Shown here piece by piece: positions 1-12,930 of a DNA stretch of 64,000 bases (position 1 is the stretch's first letter; each line of letters opens with the position of its first letter). The position numbers were made by a program, and so were the translations under genes. The stretch comes from Candidatus Nitrosotalea okcheonensis (GTDB lineage Archaea > Thermoproteota > Nitrososphaeria > Nitrososphaerales > Nitrosopumilaceae): assembly GCF_900177045.1 (NCBI RefSeq), contig NZ_LT841358.1, forward strand, positions 1,549,559 through 1,613,558, in the 5' to 3' direction. Under the pieces are notes generated by a model that searched no databases, was not told where the DNA came from, and saw nothing but the letters and a program-made list of their open reading frames with translations.

Positions 1-2913
1 TCAGAGATAGTAACCGCCTCTGATGTATCATCTACAACTGGTACAAAGAGCAAAACACTGACTGAAACAGTAACCTCGCATGACTCCATATCATTCAAGG
101 GTGGAATCCACATTGAGGCAAGGGATCAAAATAATAACCTAATTGCAGGTTCCTCCTATACGCTTTCACCAAATCACGATGGCAGTAACACTCCTGAAGT
201 GATAGTTGACGGAGGCATCAATGATAATGATGCCCAGAATAATGGTAGGGTAATTGTTACCTTGGTACCGTTTGGATCTTATAACATAACAATGACAACA
301 ATACCTGCAGGATATAACGTGCTTGGAAACTCTACAATCTATACTGTACATAATACCAACTTGAACGGTACTACCATATTCAGACTTACACCAATCAACT
401 ACAACCTCAAAACATTGCCGCCTACAGTGATCACATCAGCACCACACCTCGATAGTACCACTCTTAATTCATGGTCGCCTTCTGGATTTGATGCAGTAAA
501 AATAAACGGTACAGTACATACATCCATAACAAAAGTTCAGAGCCTACCCCCGATAATTTCGGTAGGATCATCTAATTCTAGATTGAGTAATGCAATTACA
601 AACCAGGTAACGGTATCATTGAAAACATCCTTTGCAGACAATACCACCCCAACTACAATAATGAATACATTGGGCGTACCGGCATATTCCATGCCAAAAT
701 CATCAAATGTTATAGCAGTGATACCAAGTATTGTGGGAACAACAAGTACGTCTAGTACCAACCAGGTAGTAACCACTCCGCCCCTCAACAAGATAATTCC
801 TGGCCAGAAGATGATCATCCCGGTAGAAACTTCAGTAATTCCACAAACAGGTGGTCTCAAGCAACTTAACGTAACAGCATGTGCAAACCCAGGCCAAAAT
901 GGATGTGCAGCATATACCCCTAGTTCATCAAATGACTGGTTCCTAGTAAAGACAGACAACAAACTTCCGTCTTCAAAACCCGCACTGCCTCAAAATGACA
1001 AGCTAACGCTATACGTCAATGTAACATATCAGCACGAAGTATCTGGAATAGGATTTGACTGGTCAAATTCTGCCAACTTTAAGACTTCTCCGCAATTGAC
1101 ACTACAGCTACCCAAGAACCCTTCAGGAGTGCAAGTGGATTCCAATGGGTGTCCAGTATCTGACATATTCTTGTTTGATCCCACCGGAAATGGTGGGGCA
1201 GGCAGCTGGGTAAGCAATCCTGTTACTATACTATCGGCCACTCCATCATCTGATAATACCCTTACATGTGATGTGATAGTATCAGCACCACACTTTTCAC
1301 AATTTGCACTGGGAGGCCATAGCACTAGCATCTCGTCCGGATCAACTACATCTACTGCAGGACCAGTAGGGTCTATCAGTGCTGGTGGAGGTGTCACTGG
1401 AGTCGGCCCAAGTGTTGCTACCACAACAAGTAATGGAGGAGGGACAGGACCGTACCTTAAGATCCAGGACATATCATATGACGTATGTGACAAGCAAATT
1501 GTAAGAATCCAGGTGGCAACAGACTATAATAAAACCGATCCTACCGTCATAGTCCGCACGTCAATCAGCGGCGTTGTTGATGCAAAGCTAATACCTGTCC
1601 AGCCATATGCCCAAGAAAATGTCAACGCCTCGGTAAGACAGCTCGTCTATGAGGCTTCCATCAATCCAAAGGAGACATCATTTGAGGTGGTTGCAATTGA
1701 AACAATAGGGACAAACCTATTTTCGGTAGGAAAAACAGTCACGGTTACAGGATGCAACGAGGACCTAGATTTCACAAAAATTGAACTGGTAACACAGCCC
1801 GCCCAGATAGATCTTAGCGCGCCGCAGATATTTGATTTCAAGTTCCAGGTGGGTAATGGAACAAAACAGCCTGCAACTGTACCCACTACACAATTCATCC
1901 ATGGCAACCCGCTCTTGGTATATGCCATAGTCAACACGCCTACGCAAATCACCTTGCCGGAGCTGCGATTTGCGGTAATTGGAAGTGACATGCAGCAGTA
2001 CCATACGATATCCATGAATGTTGTTCCGCTGCAGGTATCAAACAGCACATACATGCTGTCTGCAACGGTACCATATGAGATGCTGCAGGCACCTGGCGTG
2101 CAATACTGGATTCATGTGGAAAACAGTGCGGGCAAAAAGGCTGATTCCGATGTCTCCACAATAGGTGTCAAGCCAAGCTATCAAATTAATGCAAGCCTCC
2201 AGCTTGACGTTTCACAAAACAGGGCTGCAGGAACCACGTCAAGGCCGTCAGCATACCTTACAATCAACGGAAATCCAGTATATGGTACAATATCGCTTCT
2301 AGTTGACGGCAAGACTGTCTATGTATCACCGGGACAGTTGTTCCCAAGCGGGCAGACCCAAGTAAGGCTTGAATGGAAGACCCAGCCTTCCGATGCCCTA
2401 GTCAATCACAAGATATATGCAGTGGCAAACATTTACGACAAGTCATTTACCGCGCAGGCAAGTGTCATTACATTCTCGTCAGTCAAGACAGAGTCAATTA
2501 CACAGCCAATAGACATTTCTCCGATCAACGATACCGCAGGACACGCCGTTGCCAACCCGCAGGTACTCTATTCCTCGTTTAACAACGAGGGTACCATGAG
2601 ATACAAGGTAACCGCACCTGACGGCACGTGTGTGATAGGCGCCTCGGACCAGTGCCTTGTACGGGACTCTACACTTGATGCACCAGGGCAGATGAAGAGC
2701 ATTACAATAGGTGACCAGATATACCGTGTAAGATATTCCGGAATAAACGATACGCTTGAAAGGTTCTCCATAACGTCAGTTGACCCAATAGTTGGAACAT
2801 GGAATGTCGAGATAGACTCCCAGTCAGACCTTACACCGCAGATGCATGTGATGGATGGCGTGTCACTAAAGGTGACTTATCGACCAGTAACCTTGCCCTT
2901 CTTGTCTGAATAA
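1..2913 (+). CDS. Large secreted/surface protein, 5' end outside window
   Basis: The frame is open from base 1 to the TAA at 2911-2913, so at least 970 residues are visible and the true start lies upstream; the GTG at 199 is only an internal codon. The chain is rich in Ser, Thr, Asn and Gly with many N-x-S/T sequons, beta-rich Ig-like stretches, a Gly/Ser/Thr-rich linker around residues 440-475 and few cysteines (for example in the C-x5-C of the last 100 residues). This resembles extracellular thaumarchaeal proteins that would be N-glycosylated. No catalytic motif was recognised. No C-terminal membrane anchor is visible, so it may associate with the S-layer or be released. Function unknown. 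Confidence 0.8.
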   Translation, partial: SEIVTASDVSSTTGTKSKTLTETVTSHDSISFKGGIHIEARDQNNNLIAGSSYTLSPNHDGSNTPEVIVDGGINDNDAQNNGRVIVTLVPFGSYNITMTTIPAGYNVLGNSTIYTVHNTNLNGTTIFRLTPINYNLKTLPPTVITSAPHLDSTTLNSWSPSGFDAVKINGTVHTSITKVQSLPPIISVGSSNSRLSNAITNQVTVSLKTSFADNTTPTTIMNTLGVPAYSMPKSSNVIAVIPSIVGTTSTSSTNQVVTTPPLNKIIPGQKMIIPVETSVIPQTGGLKQLNVTACANPGQNGCAAYTPSSSNDWFLVKTDNKLPSSKPALPQNDKLTLYVNVTYQHEVSGIGFDWSNSANFKTSPQLTLQLPKNPSGVQVDSNGCPVSDIFLFDPTGNGGAGSWVSNPVTILSATPSSDNTLTCDVIVSAPHFSQFALGGHSTSISSGSTTSTAGPVGSISAGGGVTGVGPSVATTTSNGGGTGPYLKIQDISYDVCDKQIVRIQVATDYNKTDPTVIVRTSISGVVDAKLIPVQPYAQENVNASVRQLVYEASINPKETSFEVVAIETIGTNLFSVGKTVTVTGCNEDLDFTKIELVTQPAQIDLSAPQIFDFKFQVGNGTKQPATVPTTQFIHGNPLLVYAIVNTPTQITLPELRFAVIGSDMQQYHTISMNVVPLQVSNSTYMLSATVPYEMLQAPGVQYWIHVENSAGKKADSDVSTIGVKPSYQINASLQLDVSQNRAAGTTSRPSAYLTINGNPVYGTISLLVDGKTVYVSPGQLFPSGQTQVRLEWKTQPSDALVNHKIYAVANIYDKSFTAQASVITFSSVKTESITQPIDISPINDTAGHAVANPQVLYSSFNNEGTMRYKVTAPDGTCVIGASDQCLVRDSTLDAPGQMKSITIGDQIYRVRYSGINDTLERFSITSVDPIVGTWNVEIDSQSDLTPQMHVMDGVSLKVTYRPVTLPFLSE

Positions 2914-2926
2914 AAAACTAGTTCAA

Positions 2927-3013
2927 GGGAAATACGGTGGCTATTGCAAGAAGAGAATCAGATCTGAAATCTTTGTCATTTTCTGGCTTGGTAGTCTCGT
3001 ATTGTAACCATTA
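2927..3013 (-). pseudogene. Decayed duplicate of the glyS 3' end
   Basis: Read on the minus strand this stretch resembles the last ~30 codons of glyS (3927-4020): both contain the run encoding V-T-I-R, a K-ISDL-like segment and an A-(T)-A/V-F-P ending. Gaps and substitutions have destroyed the frame. It lies about 1 kb beyond the real glyS end in the same orientation. It could be a relic of a duplication or of an element that inserted at the 3' end of glyS and left a partial copy. Confidence 0.6.
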
Positions 3014-3340
3014 GATCTAACTTGTATGCAAAATAAAATATTTTACAAATGTTGAACAAGAAACATTTTGTTGATACGAGTATATCTATTATCACAGGAA
3101 TTATGATATCTGTATATGATTACCTGTCCATGAATACAAGACAAGTAACTGAAAATAATTCTATAACCAATTAGTAGATTAAGCCGCAGATACATCAACT
3201 AGTGCTACTGTAAAAAATTATACAGTGCAATTTATGGAATTGTTGAAAGTTTCTGTAAAACCATAAAATTCCAAAATGGCCTCGTCAAAAATTATATCAA
3301 TTCCACAATGCCTGATGATCGTTATAATTATTGTTGATCA

Positions 3341-3738
3341 ATGCAACTCAAAAATATCATAATGTACGGTGCAATCATAGCACTCCCTGTAGCAGTAGTG
3401 TACATGTATGGATTACAATCATTCAATCTTGGAGAATCACAGACATCATCTGTAAATTCCGAGAGTTTTTTTATTACGGGACACGTAACCATGTTTGTTA
3501 CAGCTCCTGATGGTAAAATGATAACCTGTAAGCAATCTGATAACATCATTGTAAATCAAGGACACCAAGCGGCGGAACATCAACAGTTTCTATATCAAAT
3601 ACATTCACAAATACATCTGGTGGAGCAGTAACTATTTCTGAAGATGTTCTTTTCAATTCTACAAATAAAGCAATTGACGGTATGTTTGCCGAAGAACCAA
3701 TCAGCCCTAGCATAACACTGAACAACAATGATCACTAA
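3341..3738 (+). pseudogene. Broken single-TM membrane/secreted protein gene
   Basis: The first part (ATG 3341) encodes an N-terminal membrane segment (about residues 5-24) and then a beta-rich stretch with V-T-A-P-D-G and N-I-I-V-N-Q-G. Just after this the frame is lost. A different frame from about 3560 continues with T-S-T-V-S-I-S-N-T-F-T-N and ends at TAA 3736-3738. From memory, intact thaumarchaeal relatives have a longer central part, so an internal deletion with frame shift is likely. These relatives resemble tail- or adhesin-like proteins; the function is unknown. Confidence 0.55.
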
Positions 3739-3926
3739 CCGTCAAGTGGACTATCTCAATAACAAACTAGACCAAAAATTTCTTGAAACATGTTTTTTTA
3801 TATTTTTTAATGTTCAGGTTTTCACTGTTGATATACATAAGAAAATCTCGGATGGAACATCAAGTACAAAGCAGTAAGTCATCATCTGTATGTTGAACAC
3901 CAGTGATTAGTTTTGCGATATAATTT

Positions 3927-5384
3927 TTAGGGAAATGCAGTAGCCCTTGCAAGATGAGAGTCAAGATCTGAAATTTTTATTCTTTCTTGACTCATCGAGT
4001 CTCGGTTTCGTATTGTGACAGTATTGTCTTCCAATGTCTGGTGATCAATTGTTACTGCAAAAGGAGCGCCAACCTCATCCAATCTTCTATATCTTCTTCC
4101 TATTGCACCAGAGTGGTCCAAAAATGTATCATATTTTTTTCTTAGCATCATATACACCTCGTCAGTCTTTTCTGCCAATCCGTCTTTTTTTACAAGAGAC
4201 AAGATACCTACATGGACTGGAGACAAGTATGGCTCTAAGGAAAGTACAACCCTGTCATTTTCCTTGTCTTCTCGGAGTCTATGCTCTATCATGGTATACA
4301 GGCTTCGGTCTATTCCCATTGATATTTCAAATACATGTGGCAGGACCTTTGTTTCATCGTCCATCACCTCAAATTTTTCTTTGCTTGTATTACCATGGCT
4401 TTTCAAGTCATAATCAGATCTGTAGTTGCATGCAACAAGCTCAAGCCAGCCTATGTTGGTCTCAACCTCAAAATCAAATGCAACTGTTGCATAGAATGCC
4501 TTTTCCTTTTCTCCTAGCTTTCTAAACCTGCTCCTTGATACATCAATTCCTGTCTTTTGGTAAAACTCTACAAGTAGTCCAAGGTAATATGCAACTAGCT
4601 TGTTTGGGACCAGGCCTGAATCCAGTGCCTCCTTACACGTCATACTCTTTATGGTATCGTCTACCATTATTCTTATCTGAGTATTTTCAACCTCTGAGAA
4701 CTTGGGCAGATCATCAAGATTGGCTGGATTGCAAAATACTTCAATTTCTGCCTGATAAAATTCTCTTAATCTAAGAAGGCTCTGCCTTGGCGAGATCTCA
4801 TTTCTAAAACTTTTTCCTATCTGAGCAATACCAATCGGAAGCTTTCCTCGCATTGTCTTGAACAGCCTTGGAAAATCAACAAAGATGGATTGACATGTCT
4901 CTGGCCTGAGATATGCTGATTCTCCCTGGGCTCCTATTCCAACCTTGAACATCATGTTGAATTTCTTGATACTTTCAAAACTTCCCTTGCATTTGGGACA
5001 CTTGATGTTTTTTTCCTGTATCACTTTATCAAACTCTACCAAATCTGCACTTTCTGGGATAGTAATTGAAGTGATCTCTTCTATCATCTTGTCTGCCCTA
5101 AAGATGGATTTACATTTTGTACACATTGCGATTGGATCTGCAAAACTTGCCAAGTGACCTGACGCGACAAAAACATTTTCTGACATTATCTGCGAACCGT
5201 CAATCTCCCACATCCTGTCTCTCCTTACCAGTTCTCTTCTCCACAATTCAATGAACTTGTTCTTTAGACTGACTCCTGAGGGACCATACTCCCAAAATCC
5301 TGCATGTGCATCAGAGTAAATCTCACAGCTTGGAAAATAAAATCCACGCTCCAGTGCAAGTTGTATTATTTGATCGTAATTCAT
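3927..5384 (-). CDS. glyS: Glycyl-tRNA synthetase
   Basis: Class II aminoacyl-tRNA synthetase of 485 residues that charges tRNA-Gly with glycine. Visible hallmarks are the N-terminal RGF(Y/F)-PSCEIY segment, the WEYGP motif, two zinc-type CxxC pairs (C-T-K-C near residue 90 and C-P-K-C near 130), motif 2 (FRNEISPR, about residue 195) and motif 3 (GIDRSLY). The C-terminal anticodon-binding domain follows. The length fits the archaeal/eukaryotic homodimeric alpha2 form. Only 6 bp separate its ATG from the upstream nfo stop, so the two are probably co-transcribed. Confidence 0.95.
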   Translation of the reverse strand: MNYDQIIQLALERGFYFPSCEIYSDAHAGFWEYGPSGVSLKNKFIELWRRELVRRDRMWEIDGSQIMSENVFVASGHLASFADPIAMCTKCKSIFRADKMIEEITSITIPESADLVEFDKVIQEKNIKCPKCKGSFESIKKFNMMFKVGIGAQGESAYLRPETCQSIFVDFPRLFKTMRGKLPIGIAQIGKSFRNEISPRQSLLRLREFYQAEIEVFCNPANLDDLPKFSEVENTQIRIMVDDTIKSMTCKEALDSGLVPNKLVAYYLGLLVEFYQKTGIDVSRSRFRKLGEKEKAFYATVAFDFEVETNIGWLELVACNYRSDYDLKSHGNTSKEKFEVMDDETKVLPHVFEISMGIDRSLYTMIEHRLREDKENDRVVLSLEPYLSPVHVGILSLVKKDGLAEKTDEVYMMLRKKYDTFLDHSGAIGRRYRRLDEVGAPFAVTIDHQTLEDNTVTIRNRDSMSQERIKISDLDSHLARATAFP

Positions 5385-5390
5385 GATTCA

Positions 5391-6233
5391 CTATGCCAAC
5401 TCTTTTGCCTTGCTCAAGTTTCCAACATCATCACGTCTCTCATCAATCGGTGTCTCTAAAATTATTGGAATTTTTTTACGATTTATTGTTTTTATGATGT
5501 GCCCCAACCCCTTCTCCCCAATGTGTCCCAGTCCAATGTGCTCGTGTCTGTCTAGGTTGCTTCCAAGTTCTCCCTTGGAGTCATTGAGGTGCAAAATTTT
5601 GAGGCGTTCAAAACCTATTGCATTATTTAATTTTTCAAGTGTTGCAGCTGCACCTTTTTCTGTACTCATGTCATAGCCAGCTGCAAAACCATGGCAGGTA
5701 TCAAAACAGATGCCAAATCTTTTGGCAGGCTTGAGCTCAGACAAAATGGATGCAAGCTGGTCAAGATCAGAACCAACACTGTTTTTTTGACCTGCTGTGT
5801 TTTCAAGAAGAATAGTCACATCATCCGGGGTGTCTTTTGCAGCCTTTGTAAATGCCCTGAGTAGCATCTCGATTCCTTTCTTGTCTCCTTGGCCCTTGTG
5901 ACTTCCTAAATGTGCAACAATGTATGGAATTCCCAACTTACTGCATCTTTTAACCTCGTCTATTAGTGAACCAAGTGATCTTACAAATGGATCCTCTTCT
6001 GGAGAGGAAAGGTTTGGCAAATATGGCATATGAGCTACTGTCGCAAATCTGTCAATCTTGGTCTTGGCAAGTTTTTCTTTGAAACTTGAAGCATCATTAC
6101 TTGTTAATGGTTTTGCAGCCCATCCTCTTGGGTTGCGGGTAAAAATCTGAAATGCTGAACATCCTATTGCTACAGCGTTATCAACTGCCTTGTCTATGGA
6201 ACCTGCAATGGATACATGTAATCCAACCTGCAT
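5391..6233 (-). CDS. nfo: Endonuclease IV (AP endonuclease)
   Basis: 280-residue TIM-barrel AP endonuclease of the base-excision repair pathway, cleaving 5' to abasic sites. The chain starts with GLHVSIAGS and AFQIFTRNPR. It carries the zinc-ligand segments of the family: H-L-G-S-H-K-G, LLENTAGQ, CFDTCHGFAAGYD, LHLNDSK and DRHEHIGLG-HIG. Length is typical. It is first in a likely operon with glyS and is divergent from priL. Confidence 0.95.
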   Translation of the reverse strand: MQVGLHVSIAGSIDKAVDNAVAIGCSAFQIFTRNPRGWAAKPLTSNDASSFKEKLAKTKIDRFATVAHMPYLPNLSSPEEDPFVRSLGSLIDEVKRCSKLGIPYIVAHLGSHKGQGDKKGIEMLLRAFTKAAKDTPDDVTILLENTAGQKNSVGSDLDQLASILSELKPAKRFGICFDTCHGFAAGYDMSTEKGAAATLEKLNNAIGFERLKILHLNDSKGELGSNLDRHEHIGLGHIGEKGLGHIIKTINRKKIPIILETPIDERRDDVGNLSKAKELA

Positions 6234-6345
6234 GCCACTAATTTATTTGGGTTTAATTTAAACTCGCAGGAAAATAATCCAAGCTAGTTTTATCATGGCA
6301 AGATGATATAATCAAATTTTTAAGGTTATTGATGACAGAGAGAGT

Positions 6346-7356
6346 ATGCTAAAGATTGGAGTAAAGGATTTGGCAAAATATCCTTTTCTTACAGAGGCCG
6401 GGGAATATCTGCGAAACACGGGACTGAGTCTTGAGCAGCTGGGGCATCCAGACTGGCAACCAATCGTCGAAAAGGCATATGGCAGAATCGTAGTTGCATC
6501 ATCTGGACAAATTTATAGTTCTGATCTTGAAACACTGGACAATGATTCTGAGTTGCTTTCATTCCTAGTGGCAATAATTTTACTCAAGTCTGCAGGAATT
6601 GCAACTCTTATTCGAAGGTTTTCTCTTGCAGAATCAAGAAGAGCCGAAAAATATTTGCAACAGGATCTCTGGGTAAGCAGAGATAAAAAAAACCTAGAGC
6701 TTCCATTGAAGATAATCCGGGATCTCTTTGCAGTCAATGTATCAATTGACAATGAAGATTTTGTGATCAAGGTTCCTGATTATCTACATCGCGCAATCCA
6801 TTTTCATGAAAAAGAATGGAAGTTGATAAATAGAAGGGTTGCAAATGGCCTTGTCTACCTGAGTGCACATGAAACAGTCAGGCTGATACGTGCTGAGCTT
6901 GGTGAATACATCAATGGAAAAATCCAGTCAGTCAATGTTGATTCTGTACCTCAAATCTTCAGACAAAGGGTAGAAGATCTGGTGGCACTTGCCAAAAAGT
7001 TTTCTGACACGGCCTATGTGTCTTCGGAATATCCTCCATGCGTCAAGCATGGAATTGAAGTTTTAGAAAAGGGAGAGAACCTGCCGCACTCTGGAAGATT
7101 CCTGCTTGCTACCTATCTTCTCTCAAAGGGCCAGACAGTTGATCAAATTGCACCCTTGTTCAAAAATGCCCCTGATTATAACGAGCGAACTACAAGATAC
7201 CAACTAGATCACATTTCTGGTTCATCTGGAAGCGGAACCAAATACCAGTGCCCATCGTGTGAAAAACTACGAAGCGAGAGTCTCTGCTTTGCCATCCCTG
7301 ACTGTGATGGAATAATAAATCCCGTACAGTTTGGCAAAAAGAGGAAGAGCCAATGA
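6346..7356 (+). CDS. priL: DNA primase large subunit
   Basis: 336-residue PriL, the non-catalytic subunit of archaeal primase that supports RNA/DNA primer synthesis. The N-terminal helical domain is followed by the C-terminal iron-sulfur domain. Four conserved cysteines are visible: one in YPPC (residue 232), the pair C-P-S-C (302 and 305) and later cysteines in SLC and PDC, which would bind a 4Fe-4S cluster. The gene overlaps priS by 4 bp (ATGA), so coupled translation is likely. ATG start chosen, in a promoter region divergent from nfo. Confidence 0.93.
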   Translation: MLKIGVKDLAKYPFLTEAGEYLRNTGLSLEQLGHPDWQPIVEKAYGRIVVASSGQIYSSDLETLDNDSELLSFLVAIILLKSAGIATLIRRFSLAESRRAEKYLQQDLWVSRDKKNLELPLKIIRDLFAVNVSIDNEDFVIKVPDYLHRAIHFHEKEWKLINRRVANGLVYLSAHETVRLIRAELGEYINGKIQSVNVDSVPQIFRQRVEDLVALAKKFSDTAYVSSEYPPCVKHGIEVLEKGENLPHSGRFLLATYLLSKGQTVDQIAPLFKNAPDYNERTTRYQLDHISGSSGSGTKYQCPSCEKLRSESLCFAIPDCDGIINPVQFGKKRKSQ

Positions 7357-8477
7357 ATGAAAAAAATGCATTGCTGATAGAAAGCGCATTCAAGGAATAT
7401 TATTTTAACCGTTTTGATCTAATACATGTTCCACAAAGAGCTGTGGAAAGGGAGTTTGGATACCAAAAATTCAATTCTGGAATGACTAGGCACCTTGTTG
7501 TAAAAAACGACAAGGAACTACATCTAATGTTGATGAAGGAGGTCCCCTCAGATGTGTACTGCTCAAATGCATACTATATGTTTCCAAACCTTCCCATGTC
7601 AGAGAAAGACTGGAAAGGTGCAGACATGATCTTTGATATTGATGCAAAAGACTTGGCCCTTCCATGCAGAAAAGATCATACCATATTCAAGTGCAGCTCT
7701 TGCAACAATTCTGTAACTGAATTCCAGTCCCAGTGTCCAAAATGTGGTTCTGGAAAATTTGAGACTGCATCTGTAATCTGTAAGAATTGCATATCCGAGT
7801 CTAAAAAAGAGGTTACAAAGCTTGTTGATATACTTACAACTGACTTGAATGTGCAAAAAGAACAGATAGAGACATATTTTTCTGGAAATGAGGGGTTTCA
7901 TATCCGTGTAACCAATGCTGATTACGAACCGTTGGGTTCCCAGGAAAGAGCAGACTTGGTAGACTATATCATGTTCAATGGTGCAATACCTGAATCATTT
8001 GGAATCAAGCGACAAAACAACTCCAAGTCCTTGCTTCCCACCTTTGAGGAGAAAGGATGGCGAGGCAGAGTTGCACGTAAATTATTTTCATCGAGATCAA
8101 AGGTACCCAAAGTTACACGCGAGATAATTGCAAGTGGATATTCTGCATTTCAGGTACAGCTAGAAGAGATCAAAAAAACCATGGGAGTAAGAGTTGACCC
8201 CAAGGTGACCATGGATATACACAGAATATTTAGGCTTGAGGGATCAATTAACAGCAAGAGCGGCCTCTCAAAAATTCAATGTACCAACCTGGATTCATTT
8301 GATCCATTTTTGGAAGCATGTCTTCTTGGAGACGATAATGTGGAGATTATGGTAGACTGTCCATTGCAAATACGGCTGAAAAACAAGAAGTTTGGTCCAT
8401 ACAAGAGTGAAATTGTTTCTCTGCCAAAATATGCCGCAGTTTACATGTTGTGCAAAGGACTGGGAAATGCAATATGA
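7353..8477 (+). CDS. priS: DNA primase small (catalytic) subunit
   Basis: 374-residue PriS, the catalytic subunit of archaeal/eukaryotic-type primase. The metal-binding acidic pair sits in MIFDIDAKDL (about residue 95). A zinc-binding knob follows with CSSC, CPKC and C-K-N-C cysteines between about residues 110 and 145. EGFHIRV and later basic segments match nucleotide-binding parts of the fold. It starts inside the priL stop codon region, so both subunits are made from one transcript. Confidence 0.94.
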   Translation: MNEKNALLIESAFKEYYFNRFDLIHVPQRAVEREFGYQKFNSGMTRHLVVKNDKELHLMLMKEVPSDVYCSNAYYMFPNLPMSEKDWKGADMIFDIDAKDLALPCRKDHTIFKCSSCNNSVTEFQSQCPKCGSGKFETASVICKNCISESKKEVTKLVDILTTDLNVQKEQIETYFSGNEGFHIRVTNADYEPLGSQERADLVDYIMFNGAIPESFGIKRQNNSKSLLPTFEEKGWRGRVARKLFSSRSKVPKVTREIIASGYSAFQVQLEEIKKTMGVRVDPKVTMDIHRIFRLEGSINSKSGLSKIQCTNLDSFDPFLEACLLGDDNVEIMVDCPLQIRLKNKKFGPYKSEIVSLPKYAAVYMLCKGLGNAI

Positions 8478-8568
8478 AAAAATTCAACCTTGATTTGACT
8501 TATTAATGGTATTTTGCAAAAGAAACTTAGGTAGACATTAGTTTGACACAAAGGAAGGTAGCCTGATT

Positions 8569-11409
8569 TTGTATAATTCATCGACCCAGTCCAGCCCACC
8601 ACCACGTGATGCTAGTAAATATGTCAAGGTTGGCATTATTGTTCTAATAGCTATTGTGATTTTTGTCCTGACAAGCAACCAGGCAGTAGTCATGTACATG
8701 AACTCGCAAGAGTTTGGTACTCTGTTTACAAAGCCGCTTTACTTTTCATTGCTCTCTGCAGTGGTCTTGGCATCTATTGCATTGATACGGGTGAACATCA
8801 AAAACCGATCATCAATGTCATGGTATGCCATCAATACCATCCTGACATTCTTCAAGAGAGGTGCAAATTATTCCGTAACAGAAACAATTCCAAGTTTTAA
8901 GGATTACAAACTAAATGTTCCAAACTTTATCATCTGGCAAATAACAAAAGTTGTACTTTTTGGCGCATTCTTTACAAATCTAATGTTTGGATTTGCACTT
9001 GTCTACCTGGTTGATGGGCACAGCTTGGGTATTAACAGCATATGGAATATATTCTCACTTCCATTTGTTACGCCGCCTACTGATCCATCTTACGCTACAA
9101 CGCATGTAGTCCCGATGATTCCGTCACTGACAATTCTTGTTCCTCCAATACTTGCTGTAATAGGTCTCAGACTTGTACTCTATGTGGGACTGCATAACAT
9201 TGTGGGACTGGTTACTAGGTATCTACAAGATGCAGCAAAGGGCAAGCCCAAGGTTCTTGATTATATTTCCACAGTTGAGGCAATAATTGGAATTGGAATC
9301 ATCTGGGCTGGAATTAACATGTTCTTTACAAACCAAATCGATTACAATACCAGGTATGCCATAGGTGGTACACTAGCTGCAGGCTTGGCACTTGTTGCAT
9401 TTTATTTCATTGACAAATTCAAGTCTAGGGTAATCATATTTCCATCAAAACGTGACATCTACATTCGTATACTTGTTTTGGTAATCATTGCACTAGTTGC
9501 AGGTTCCATTATGATGGTAAACAACAGCATTGCAGATGCAAGAAAAATAGAATTTCTTGGTCCATACAAGGCAGAACAGATAGGTGTAAACAGATACCTT
9601 GGACAGTTAGACCAAATAACAGTAGTTCCAGATAATGTAAAGCTAAGCTCTGTTGCGCCAAGCGACATTCCAAACTATGTTGCACAAAATAACGCTCTGT
9701 TAGACAAAGTTCGAGTCTGGGACTGGGATGCAGCATTTGCAAAACTAAAGCCTGAGATTGGCCTCATACCATATGTGAATTTTGAAAATAATGACATACT
9801 GAGATTCAATGATACTCTGTACTGGACTGCATCCATGAAACCAATACTGCCAGATTCAGTTACCCAGGAGAACCAGTGGTACAACCAGCATTTTGTATAT
9901 ACTCATGTTGACAATGGTTTTCTTACCCTTAACGCCCAAAATGGAACAATTGTTGACAGCAACAAATTCTTCAAGCAACGAATGATTTACTATGGAGAGG
10001 GTGGCCTGTTCTCAGAAACATGGGCTGCCTATCCGCAGAACAGACAAACCTCTGCTGAGCTAAACAATGCGACATACAATGGAACCGGAGGAATTGAAGT
10101 CAAGCCGCCAATAAGCCAGCTCTTCGAGCCCAACTTTTTCTTGTCATACCCAACTGAACCAATGCACATACTCAGATACAGGGATGTACATGACAGAATG
10201 CAGCTGCTCTATCCATATTTCCAGTATAACTTGCTTGGAAAACAACTAGATATACTTCCTGTAAGCAATGGACAAAAGACCTACTGGCTTGTACCTTTGA
10301 TTGTAGGTTTTGATACTGGCAATGTCCCATGGTCATTTAGTAATCCGTACCTGAGATTGGTGGGATATGCACTGGTTGACATTTATAATGGCAAGGTCAC
10401 CCTGATAAAAACCGGTGATGACTTTTTCACAGACATGTTTGCAAGTCAATACCACGACCAGTTCATTGACATGCCATCATGGCTTGGAAAACAACTCAAA
10501 TACCCAGAGGCTCTCTTTAACTGGAAAGTTGAGATGTTCAACATTTATCATGTGACTGATCCTTCTACGTTCATACAGGCAAAAGATTTCTATGAAGTTC
10601 CAAACGGTCTTGGAACTTATTATGTAGAAGAGAAACCGCCTGGATTTGACAAGCTAACATATGTAGGCCTACTCTCGCTTGAGCTACGAGGATCTCAAGG
10701 GAGAAACTTGGCAGGATACATGATTGTGCAAAATGATGTTTCAAACCTTGGCAAGATGCAGTTTTACCAAGTTCCGCTTGATTCAAAGACAAAACTTTTG
10801 GGACCAACTGCAGTACGCGAAGCGTTATCAAGAGAATCAGCCTTTGCCCAGCTGCAAACCCTGTTGAGGACTCCTAGAGTGGGAGATAATATTTTGTACA
10901 GGATAGGAAACCAGGACGTTTACTTTATTCCTGTTTATACCGCAGGTTCTGGTGGTGTGGTTACACAGCTAGGAACCATTGCAGCAGTGGGTGCTGCATT
11001 TGATGGTGAATACTTTGTTGGCCTAGGAAATACACCACAGGAGGCATTTGCTGCTTATCTAGCAAAAGTCAGCGGCGTTGCACCAGATACCATCACTGCT
11101 GCACTGCAACTAGACGAATCAACTAGGATATCTACCATAAAAACAATACTTGGTGACCAAAAGATAACCATACTTACTCCAATGTCAATCCAGTTCCCAC
11201 TTACATTTGAGGAAGGCAAGGTGTCCTTTATACAACAATCTGACCTTGGCAATACAAAGAATCTCATATCAGAATTTGTGAAAAACTTTGTACAACAAAA
11301 CAATAACAAGATACTGTTTTGGCAGGAAAACGGTACGGTAAAACTTGGAGCTGTAACAGTAGATAACAGCGTACCGGAACTGCACTATATCACAATAGGT
11401 GTAAGATAG
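8569..11409 (+). CDS. UPF0182-family integral membrane protein
   Basis: 946-residue protein with about seven hydrophobic segments in the first 320 residues and a long, presumably extracytoplasmic, C-terminal region. It matches the UPF0182 (COG1615) family by features such as V-W-D-W-D, FVYTHVDNG, MIYYGE, YPEALF and YHVTDP-FIQ-D-YEVP. No biochemical role is established for the family. TTG at 8569 is chosen because an AAGGAAGG stretch sits about 8 nt upstream. The next two genes follow with no or 15 bp gap, suggesting a shared operon. Confidence 0.85.
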   Translation: MYNSSTQSSPPPRDASKYVKVGIIVLIAIVIFVLTSNQAVVMYMNSQEFGTLFTKPLYFSLLSAVVLASIALIRVNIKNRSSMSWYAINTILTFFKRGANYSVTETIPSFKDYKLNVPNFIIWQITKVVLFGAFFTNLMFGFALVYLVDGHSLGINSIWNIFSLPFVTPPTDPSYATTHVVPMIPSLTILVPPILAVIGLRLVLYVGLHNIVGLVTRYLQDAAKGKPKVLDYISTVEAIIGIGIIWAGINMFFTNQIDYNTRYAIGGTLAAGLALVAFYFIDKFKSRVIIFPSKRDIYIRILVLVIIALVAGSIMMVNNSIADARKIEFLGPYKAEQIGVNRYLGQLDQITVVPDNVKLSSVAPSDIPNYVAQNNALLDKVRVWDWDAAFAKLKPEIGLIPYVNFENNDILRFNDTLYWTASMKPILPDSVTQENQWYNQHFVYTHVDNGFLTLNAQNGTIVDSNKFFKQRMIYYGEGGLFSETWAAYPQNRQTSAELNNATYNGTGGIEVKPPISQLFEPNFFLSYPTEPMHILRYRDVHDRMQLLYPYFQYNLLGKQLDILPVSNGQKTYWLVPLIVGFDTGNVPWSFSNPYLRLVGYALVDIYNGKVTLIKTGDDFFTDMFASQYHDQFIDMPSWLGKQLKYPEALFNWKVEMFNIYHVTDPSTFIQAKDFYEVPNGLGTYYVEEKPPGFDKLTYVGLLSLELRGSQGRNLAGYMIVQNDVSNLGKMQFYQVPLDSKTKLLGPTAVREALSRESAFAQLQTLLRTPRVGDNILYRIGNQDVYFIPVYTAGSGGVVTQLGTIAAVGAAFDGEYFVGLGNTPQEAFAAYLAKVSGVAPDTITAALQLDESTRISTIKTILGDQKITILTPMSIQFPLTFEEGKVSFIQQSDLGNTKNLISEFVKNFVQQNNNKILFWQENGTVKLGAVTVDNSVPELHYITIGVR

Positions 11410-11970
11410 TTGCTGCTAGTTGTAGACAATGGATCTGTCTACACTTCCTCGCTCTTGGACTGTATGAGAGGTCTCGGTGTACCGTTTGAATCTCACGCAT
11501 TTTCTGATGTATCCACAATAGATGCCAAAAAATATTCCTCCATTATATTGTCAGGAAGGCGAAAAAACAATCCACAGATGAATGTGATAAACTCGGGACT
11601 GGTCAGACACTCGCTAGATGCAGGAAAGCCGTTGCTTGGTATTTGCTATGGTGCAGAAATTCTTGCACTGACCCTAGGGGGGACAATAAAAAAAATGACA
11701 TCTCCTCGTCATGGCCTGTATCAAGTACAGACCATAAAAAATAATCTTCTTACAAGTGGAAAGATTGACGCCTTTGAAAGCCACTCGTACATGATATCAA
11801 AACTTGGCCCCACTTTTATCCAGATAGCGTCATCTGATAATTGCCAGTTTGAAATATTCCAGTATGGCGACAACAATGTTTTTGGAACACAATTTCATCC
11901 AGAGATGAGTGTGGACGGGAGATCTCTTTTGGAAAAATTTTCTTCCATTAATGGTATTAATAATACGTAA
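11410..11970 (+). CDS. Class I glutamine amidotransferase, GuaA N-domain-like
   Basis: 186-residue stand-alone class I glutaminase resembling the GMP synthase amidotransferase subunit. The catalytic cysteine lies in G-I-C-Y-G-A-E and the His-Glu pair in Q-F-H-P-E. A TTG start directly abuts the TAG of the UPF0182 gene. Stand-alone GuaA subunits normally pair with a separate synthetase subunit, which is not seen here. It could therefore serve GMP synthesis or amidate an unknown partner. Confidence 0.8.
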   Translation: MLLVVDNGSVYTSSLLDCMRGLGVPFESHAFSDVSTIDAKKYSSIILSGRRKNNPQMNVINSGLVRHSLDAGKPLLGICYGAEILALTLGGTIKKMTSPRHGLYQVQTIKNNLLTSGKIDAFESHSYMISKLGPTFIQIASSDNCQFEIFQYGDNNVFGTQFHPEMSVDGRSLLEKFSSINGINNT

Positions 11971-11985
11971 ATTATTGGTTCCTTG

Positions 11986-12930
11986 ATGGATTCTACTCAC
12001 ACACTAGAGATACCAATCGTAAGAGAGGAGAACATCTGTCTACCACTTGTTGTAAGTGCCGTATCAAAATACTGGGGAGTTGACTTGCCGCTAAAAGAAG
12101 CTGCAGAGATTGCAAAAAAATATCAAAACATGAAAGGCAGCATACTCATTGAAGGCGTTGAGCTTGCAGAAAGACATGGGCTTGCTGGCATTATAATAAA
12201 TTCTACTCTAAAAGAGCTCAAAAAAATGATCGACATTGGTGTACCGCCAATTGTTATCTTGCCTGGAGTAAAGGATGTAGTGCAACATGCGTCGCTGATT
12301 GTGGGGTATGACGAGACAGAAAAGACAATCTTTCACTATATACCAGAGCCTGAAAAGATAGGGGCTATACCCGAGAAGATATTTGATGAGCAGTGGCAGG
12401 AGGATGACCGGTTGATGATCTTGCTTGTTCCACAAGACATATTGTCAGACATCAACACATTTGATGAAAAAAAAATAAAATCAAACAGGCTGTGCTTTGA
12501 CGGGGAAAAGCTACGGCTGCAGGGCAAGACTGGAGAGGCAATGGAAAAACTAAGGCATGCCCTTGAAATTAACAAGTCAAACTCTACTGCAATGTGTCTT
12601 TTGGCAGGAATACTAAACGACCAAAACTCTAGCGAGTCAGTATCTTACTATAACAAAACCATAGCATTGCATTCAAAATACTATCTTGCATACCGGGGGC
12701 TTGGAAATTATTATCTCAAGACCAAGGATTATTCCAATGCAGAAAAATATTATACTCTTGCACTAGATGTTGACTCGACAAGATTTGCACCAATCTACAA
12801 AAATCGTGGACTGGTAAGATATGAGCAACAAAAACTTGGTGCTGCAAAACAAGATTTTCAAAAATATCTAGAGCAGATGCCTGAAGCACATGACAGGACT
12901 GGGATTGAGCAGGCAATATCGCAACTATGA
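11986..12930 (+). CDS. C39 peptidase-like domain fused to TPR repeats
   Basis: About 314 residues in two parts. Residues 1-150 resemble a papain-like C39 domain: a cysteine in ENICLPLV near residue 17 and a histidine in V-Q-H-A-S-L-I-V-G-Y-D near residue 105. Residues 165-310 form tetratricopeptide-like helices (EAMEKLRHALEIN, YYNKTIALHSKYYLAYRGLG, ALDVDSTRFAPIYKNRG). ATG 11986 is preferred over the adjoining TTG. The gene follows the amidotransferase by 15 bp. The substrate is unknown, and the domain may be a binding fold and not an active protease. Confidence 0.75.
   Translation: MDSTHTLEIPIVREENICLPLVVSAVSKYWGVDLPLKEAAEIAKKYQNMKGSILIEGVELAERHGLAGIIINSTLKELKKMIDIGVPPIVILPGVKDVVQHASLIVGYDETEKTIFHYIPEPEKIGAIPEKIFDEQWQEDDRLMILLVPQDILSDINTFDEKKIKSNRLCFDGEKLRLQGKTGEAMEKLRHALEINKSNSTAMCLLAGILNDQNSSESVSYYNKTIALHSKYYLAYRGLGNYYLKTKDYSNAEKYYTLALDVDSTRFAPIYKNRGLVRYEQQKLGAAKQDFQKYLEQMPEAHDRTGIEQAISQL

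Follow-up and report, generated by a model that had tools for sequence, protein, structure and literature searches.

Why does the 3' end of glyS, the gene for glycyl-tRNA synthetase, occur twice within about 1 kb on the chromosome of Candidatus Nitrosotalea okcheonensis, with a broken gene between the two copies? The locus lies in a window of 64,000 nucleotides (positions 1,549,559 to 1,613,558 of contig NZ_LT841358.1), which belongs to a genome assembled as a single contig of 1.97 Mb (G000) and whose nearest named relatives are Candidatus Nitrosotalea Martin2, bavarica, devanaterra and sp. TS. A first-pass annotation had read the layout as an element inserted at the glyS 3' end in a manner similar to tRNA-end integrations. 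The comparison with related genomes described here indicates that the locus is most likely a modest evolutionary scar, as opposed to a trace of an element that inserted itself.

Functional glyS occupies 3927-5384 of the window on the minus strand and carries class II tRNA synthetase and anticodon-binding domains (tRNA-synt_2b and HGTP_anticodon), which confirm its identity; full-length matches across the genus are 79-97% identical. Its 3' end forms the right copy of the repeat, while the left, decayed copy is found on the minus strand at 2926-3023, where 2926-3008 is covered by alignment and the last ~15 nt come from comparison with two relatives, G028 and G033. The aligned part has the same orientation as glyS, lies about 1003 nt from it and consists of two ungapped blocks of 80% and 76% identity. 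Its local alignment score is 54, compared with a mean of 17.0 and a maximum of 28 in 2000 dinucleotide shuffles. The decayed, gapped copy that the first-pass annotation had placed at 2927-3013, about 1 kb from glyS, is thus correctly located, and the alignment that it had proposed as a check gives a significant score. When the whole genome was searched with 2914-3926, the only matches were the stretch itself and the glyS end.

For comparison, 37 genomes of the genus were considered, 30 of which have a glyS match at the search threshold, and 27 genomes (26 fetched and the window's own) that retain the glyS 3' end plus at least 161 nt beyond it were examined. Outside these 27 are the genomes without a glyS match, G018 and G012, whose contigs stop at or just past glyS, G004, which has a distant match only, and G028, whose glyS was not found and whose contig stops within the decayed gene described below. 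The glyS-tail repeat is present in G000 (score 54) and in G033 (88), which is Nitrosotalea sp. Martin2, the closest relative, and is absent from the other 25 of the 27 genomes (scores of 28 or less). In a separate collection of 78 related loci, which includes the Martin2 locus from the same genome as G033, the repeat is found at Martin2's own locus only (88; the next score is 36 and the best reverse-strand control 34). The second glyS end of G033 is better kept than that of the window, with 50 of 54 nt matching, and aligning the copy of G028 with the window's own glyS tail gives a score of 86; in both relatives the homology extends about 125 nt into glyS. The relic tail is closest to the glyS of its own lineage: with 52 of 54 sites shared, the G028 relic is most similar to G033, ahead of G000 (48), G022 (47) and all others (45 or fewer).

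The glyS end is not the only gene end that is doubled. A giant surface-protein gene, here called B, converges on glyS, and its 3' part occupies 1-2913 of the window on the plus strand. The start lies upstream of the window, as do its Laminin_G_3 and MG2 domains, and the open frame of about 2700 aa measures 2724 aa in the genome. Two types of B end were modelled, B1 (type 1) and B2 (type 2). The intact left end (2812-2913, plus strand) is recognized by the type-1 nhmmer model at 2812-2923 with an E value of 2.2e-23. A second, faint relic of a B end, missed by the first-pass annotation, is found by the type-2 model on the plus strand at about 3859-3908, directly beside functional glyS. Its E value in the window is 0.32, which is the best after the genuine B end, and the same place in G033 gives 3.3e-4; the type-1 profile finds the genuine B end only and not this relic. 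In pairwise alignment the G033 relic scores 36 with G016 (maximum of 29 in 300 shuffles) and 16 with the window's own B, while the best score of the window's relic, 25, does not beat shuffles. Judged by eye, the left spacer resembles the undisturbed B1/glyS junction of G022. From these sequence comparisons, the repeated unit appears to be the whole convergent junction, B end plus glyS end, with B ends of different types on the left and on the right. Separately, G033 has two B genes whose C-terminal segments (L057:1-320 and L107:1-320) match at 311 of 320 nt before diverging, a pattern that homogenisation through recombination would give.

Between the doubled ends lie a non-coding stretch (3024-3340) and a decayed gene for a membrane-anchored protein (3341-3770, plus strand), here called Q' and its family Q. 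The alignment with G033 places within 3024-3340 the joint between the glyS relic and the region upstream of Q'. About 175 nt of this stretch are absent from G033 and G028 by pairwise alignment, and the distance from the B end to the ATG is 427 nt in G000, 250 nt in G033 and 253 nt in G028. In the window, Q' has suffered an internal deletion and a frameshift, while in G033 (L057:588-1214) it is intact and encodes 209 aa, which agrees with the broken membrane-protein gene that had been noticed from the window alone. Its dN/dS is 0.29 between G033 and G028 (71 codons) and, between G033 and G000, 0.44 in the 5' part (77 codons) and 0.13 in the 3' part (52 codons). The dS of Q' between G033 and G000, 0.27-0.30, is near that of glyS, 0.35, consistent with vertical descent since the event; together with the dN/dS values it indicates that the gene continued to be maintained once the event had taken place and that its breakage in G000 is recent.

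Elsewhere in the genus, Q is usually found beside a conserved gene for a secreted-looking protein (C) and a uracil-DNA glycosylase gene (UDG, PF03167), adjacent to a conserved gene of 213 aa (f4). Neither the C gene beside UDG nor the f4 gene has a Pfam match, so that the provisional labels CBM-like and CdvB-like for their products find no support. The gene order in G000 is f4, UDG, C, Q, large surface genes, B, glyS relic, Q', B-tail relic and glyS, with the canonical Q at C1:1534090-1534755. As judged from gene order, members of the Q family ordinarily stand at the far edge of a variable island of surface-protein genes, which is located between UDG and glyS. This island is bordered by conserved genes: f4, f6, f7 and f8 lie at one end, and the opposite end has glyS and an AP endonuclease family gene together with other conserved genes. 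Its exposed-protein content, which includes B and a 1469-aa protein with repeated Big_3_5 domains, differs between genomes, as does its size. Conserved flanks around variable surface genes are both features of a flexible, replacement-type island. G033, although rated 99% complete, has no C gene and no second close Q, so that the left boundary of the full island is documented only in G000.

The edge of the island at glyS takes several forms. In 19 of the 27 genomes, B ends 12-104 bp from the glyS stop with no insert, and its C-terminal ~480 aa are conserved there. Inspection of relatives near glyS, the other check proposed with the first-pass annotation, thus yields the same arrangement as in the window, whole in G033 and half in G028, as well as junctions without the insert; that the layout is common to relatives had been missed. 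In G028 the left half is kept, with B, glyS relic and Q' in the same order, and the end of the contig inside Q' hides the right half (the contigs of G033 and G028 break in B and Q'). Four genomes (G000, G033, G002 and G008) have only a B tail beside glyS and Q within 300 bp of it, and Q is that close to glyS in none of the other 23. The remaining four (G015, G023, G029 and G032) carry other content beside glyS. For example, G015 has a 622-aa surface protein there and B 2.1 kb away; this insert (L040:3010-4797), whose product looks secreted and has a histidine/aspartate-rich C-terminus, is without Q or the glyS repeat.

Three other lineages display a collapsed edge consisting of Q, a B-tail relic and glyS, without glyS duplication. 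The island of G008 is reduced to f4, UDG, C, Q, a B tail of 75 residues and glyS. Locus L133 has UDG, C and Q plus a B-tail relic beside glyS (nhmmer E value of 7e-4 for the B tail). In G002 (N. devanaterra), full B stands between f4 and UDG, followed by Q, a 26-residue B tail and glyS, such that a 2.6 kb block (Q, C and UDG) separates the B tail from full B. In the N. devanaterra locus (L041:9776-13903) full B converges on UDG rather than on glyS, a separate rearrangement of the same island. Outside the genus, a B relative is found 32-66 bp from glyS in 10 of 50 loci. In 13 of the 50 (L140, L141, L144-L147, L150, L151, L158, L168, L176, L184 and L188), no island is present, and glyS converges directly on f4 at a distance of 116-198 bp. 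The gap between glyS and f4 seems to be an island site common to ammonia-oxidising archaea.

We propose, with moderate confidence, that the repeat is the scar of a full-island haplotype joined to a collapsed-island haplotype by one-sided homologous recombination. In the common ancestor of G000, G033 and G028, a full haplotype (UDG, C, Q, surface genes and B1 converging on glyS) would have been joined to a collapsed one (Q', a short B2 tail and glyS) upon recombination with DNA of a close relative. Pairing would have occurred in the shared glyS end, the candidate homologous anchor, while the other end would have been joined illegitimately about 125 nt inside glyS; the joint falls within 3024-3340, a stretch too decayed for it to be placed, and is presumed to be non-homologous. 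The outcome would have been a tandem pair of convergent junctions with about 1 kb between them, in which the inner glyS tail and the B2 tail were functionless and decayed, while Q' remained under purifying selection for a time before its recent breakage in G000. We infer that both the fusion of two haplotypes and the illegitimate nature of the joint are probably correct. In favour of the fusion, the B-tail relic beside glyS resembles type-2 ends and not the window's own type-1 end, and all four genomes in which Q lies within 300 bp of glyS have just a B tail at that place, with L133 as a further case. Also in its favour are the alignment score, the layout common to relatives, the junctions without the insert, the G022-like left spacer, the usual neighbours of Q, the likeness of the relic tail to this lineage's own glyS, the dS of Q' and the lack of a nearby integrase in G000. 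Several observations count against it. The B2 relic in the window is short and weak, so that its identification leans on G033; the exact donor, Q'/B2 tail/glyS without duplication, is found in no genome examined; and the identity of glyS between G000 and G033 in 100-nt windows is flat, with no dip or breakpoint near the 3' end, although exchange by homologous recombination in a replacement-type island would be expected to show substitution peaks at the borders. In addition, the position of full B in G002 means that the locus also rearranges in other ways, C and a second close Q are missing from G033, the right half of G028 is hidden, and only a single event of glyS-tail duplication is known.

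In another explanation, a small mobile element was inserted by a site-specific recombinase at the glyS 3' end, or at the B and glyS ends, duplicating its att site, with the recombinase since lost or acting in trans. The glyS-end repeat does provide the direct repeats expected to flank such an element at a 3' end, B directly beside glyS in 19 of 27 genomes provides the empty site, and the added DNA is absent from most relatives. Moreover, thaumarchaeal elements use the 3'-distal ends of protein-coding genes at 14 of the 68 defined sites reported (PMC6563490), and the 2.6 kb block of G002 is also insertion-like. However, the insert contains no integrase, and no integrase-family match lies within 400 kb of the locus in G000; the only PF00589 match in the genome, at C1:1971623, is more than 400 kb away and below the cut-off (E value of 2.3e-4). 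The repeated homology, which spans the B end and about 125 nt of glyS, is longer and less exact than typical att sites, for which the reported median is 17 bp (PMC6563490). Furthermore, the left and right B ends differ in type, the gene family of the insert has its usual place at the opposite boundary of this island, the glyS-tail repeat is found in this clade only (1 of 78 loci), and three lineages have the right half without glyS duplication. Of the insertion first suggested, the added DNA between duplicated ends therefore stands, but site-specific integration is unlikely given the missing integrase, the doubling of both gene ends and the island-resident cargo. The suggested likeness to tRNA-end integrations finds no footing either, with no tRNA at 1-12000 of the window and no integrase nearby.

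Alternatively, part of the island itself (Q, surface genes, B end and glyS end) might have been duplicated in tandem, after which deletions left Q', the B tail and the glyS tail. The closeness of the relic glyS tail to the lineage's own glyS fits such a history, and adjacent pairs of Q-like genes do occur in G035 and G017. The protein of Q' in G033 and the canonical Q of G000 share, however, only about 36% identity, far too little for a duplication of the young age that the glyS tails indicate, and the right B tail is not of the lineage's own type, so we consider an internal duplication improbable. Chance similarity is ruled out by the alignment score relative to the shuffles, and an artefact of the G000 assembly by the recurrence of the layout in genomes that were assembled independently, complete in G033 and as the left half in G028; nothing was found in favour of either, and their probability is negligible. 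Other candidates were rejected as well: tRNA-end integration as above, a phage origin of the whole insert (no Q match in phage records and no nearby integrase-family match in G000) and a transposon, as terminal inverted repeats occur only as weak arms that do not bracket the insert.

The locus and the proposed fusion of two island haplotypes have partial counterparts in known systems. In Vibrio cholerae, T6SS clusters contain displaced 3' ends and orphan immunity genes, and the process proposed for them likewise involves a homology anchor on one side, an illegitimate joint on the other and displaced gene 3' ends downstream; the Nitrosotalea locus differs in that archaeal surface genes beside a tRNA synthetase gene are involved in a single event, with no toxin/immunity pair seen (PMC5361080). 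The island of cell-wall-associated genes in Haloquadratum walsbyi (PMC4535781) is likewise a block of variable surface genes with conserved flanks, subject to homologous recombination between lineages, and the same holds for replacement flexible genomic islands (PMC4033161). Unlike them, the Nitrosotalea island borders glyS, and a duplicated junction and a tail-fibre-like Q are not mentioned in the accessible text of those two papers (PMC4535781, PMC4033161). Integrated elements of the same phylum also show a duplicated gene 3' end flanking added DNA (PMC6563490). They have defined att sites and targets such as elongation factor 2, and the word synthetase is absent from the main text of that report, whereas the window's locus is without an integrase and has two gene ends doubled. 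VARTIG modules of Thermococcales are similarly hypervariable archaeal loci around a large surface protein, shaped by recombination, but there the C-terminus varies, while in B the C-terminal part is conserved (PMC8416519). Literature searches of titles and the starts of abstracts found no paper describing this locus.

If the fusion is correct, it shows how ammonia-oxidising archaea may rebuild their variable surface islands with no integrase involved, and the scar shared by relatives allows this to be tested; the comparison further suggests that the place beside glyS is a widespread site for islands. More speculatively, and with considerable doubt, the glyS edge of ammonia-oxidising archaea might be a long-lived two-state island, full or collapsed (Q, B tail and glyS), that is kept across species and in which a tail-fibre-like membrane protein and giant adhesins are swapped, with G000 as a natural fusion of both states.

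The predicted structure of Q' from G033 comprises a hydrophobic N-terminus and a beta-rich domain (mean pLDDT of 71.6, with the N-terminal 41 residues poorly predicted). The protein matches phrog_5417, a family of unknown function, with an E value of 1.5e-17. The closest fold in the PDB is the tail of Haloferax tailed virus 1 (E value of 8.3e-6), and a GP4 fibre/adaptor entry is matched at 5e-3; the best BFVD matches include uncharacterised archaeal-virus proteins and bacterial phage tail fibres. Archaeal chromosomes thus seem to encode, in the Q family (window 3341-3770, L057:588-1214 and L192:4764-5420), a membrane-anchored protein that resembles viral tail fibres and may bear on virus-host conflict in ammonia-oxidising archaea. 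No match to Q is present in the phage record collection, and one IMG/VR contig, from a tailed virus, encodes a relative of Q in the midst of tail genes and next to the tape-measure gene. Q is common to viruses and chromosomes, and nothing else at the locus points to a provirus. Within the G000 island, L089:10758-12803 encodes a protein of 681 aa that matches a TFIIB repeat and a winged helix, an odd regulator among the surface genes.
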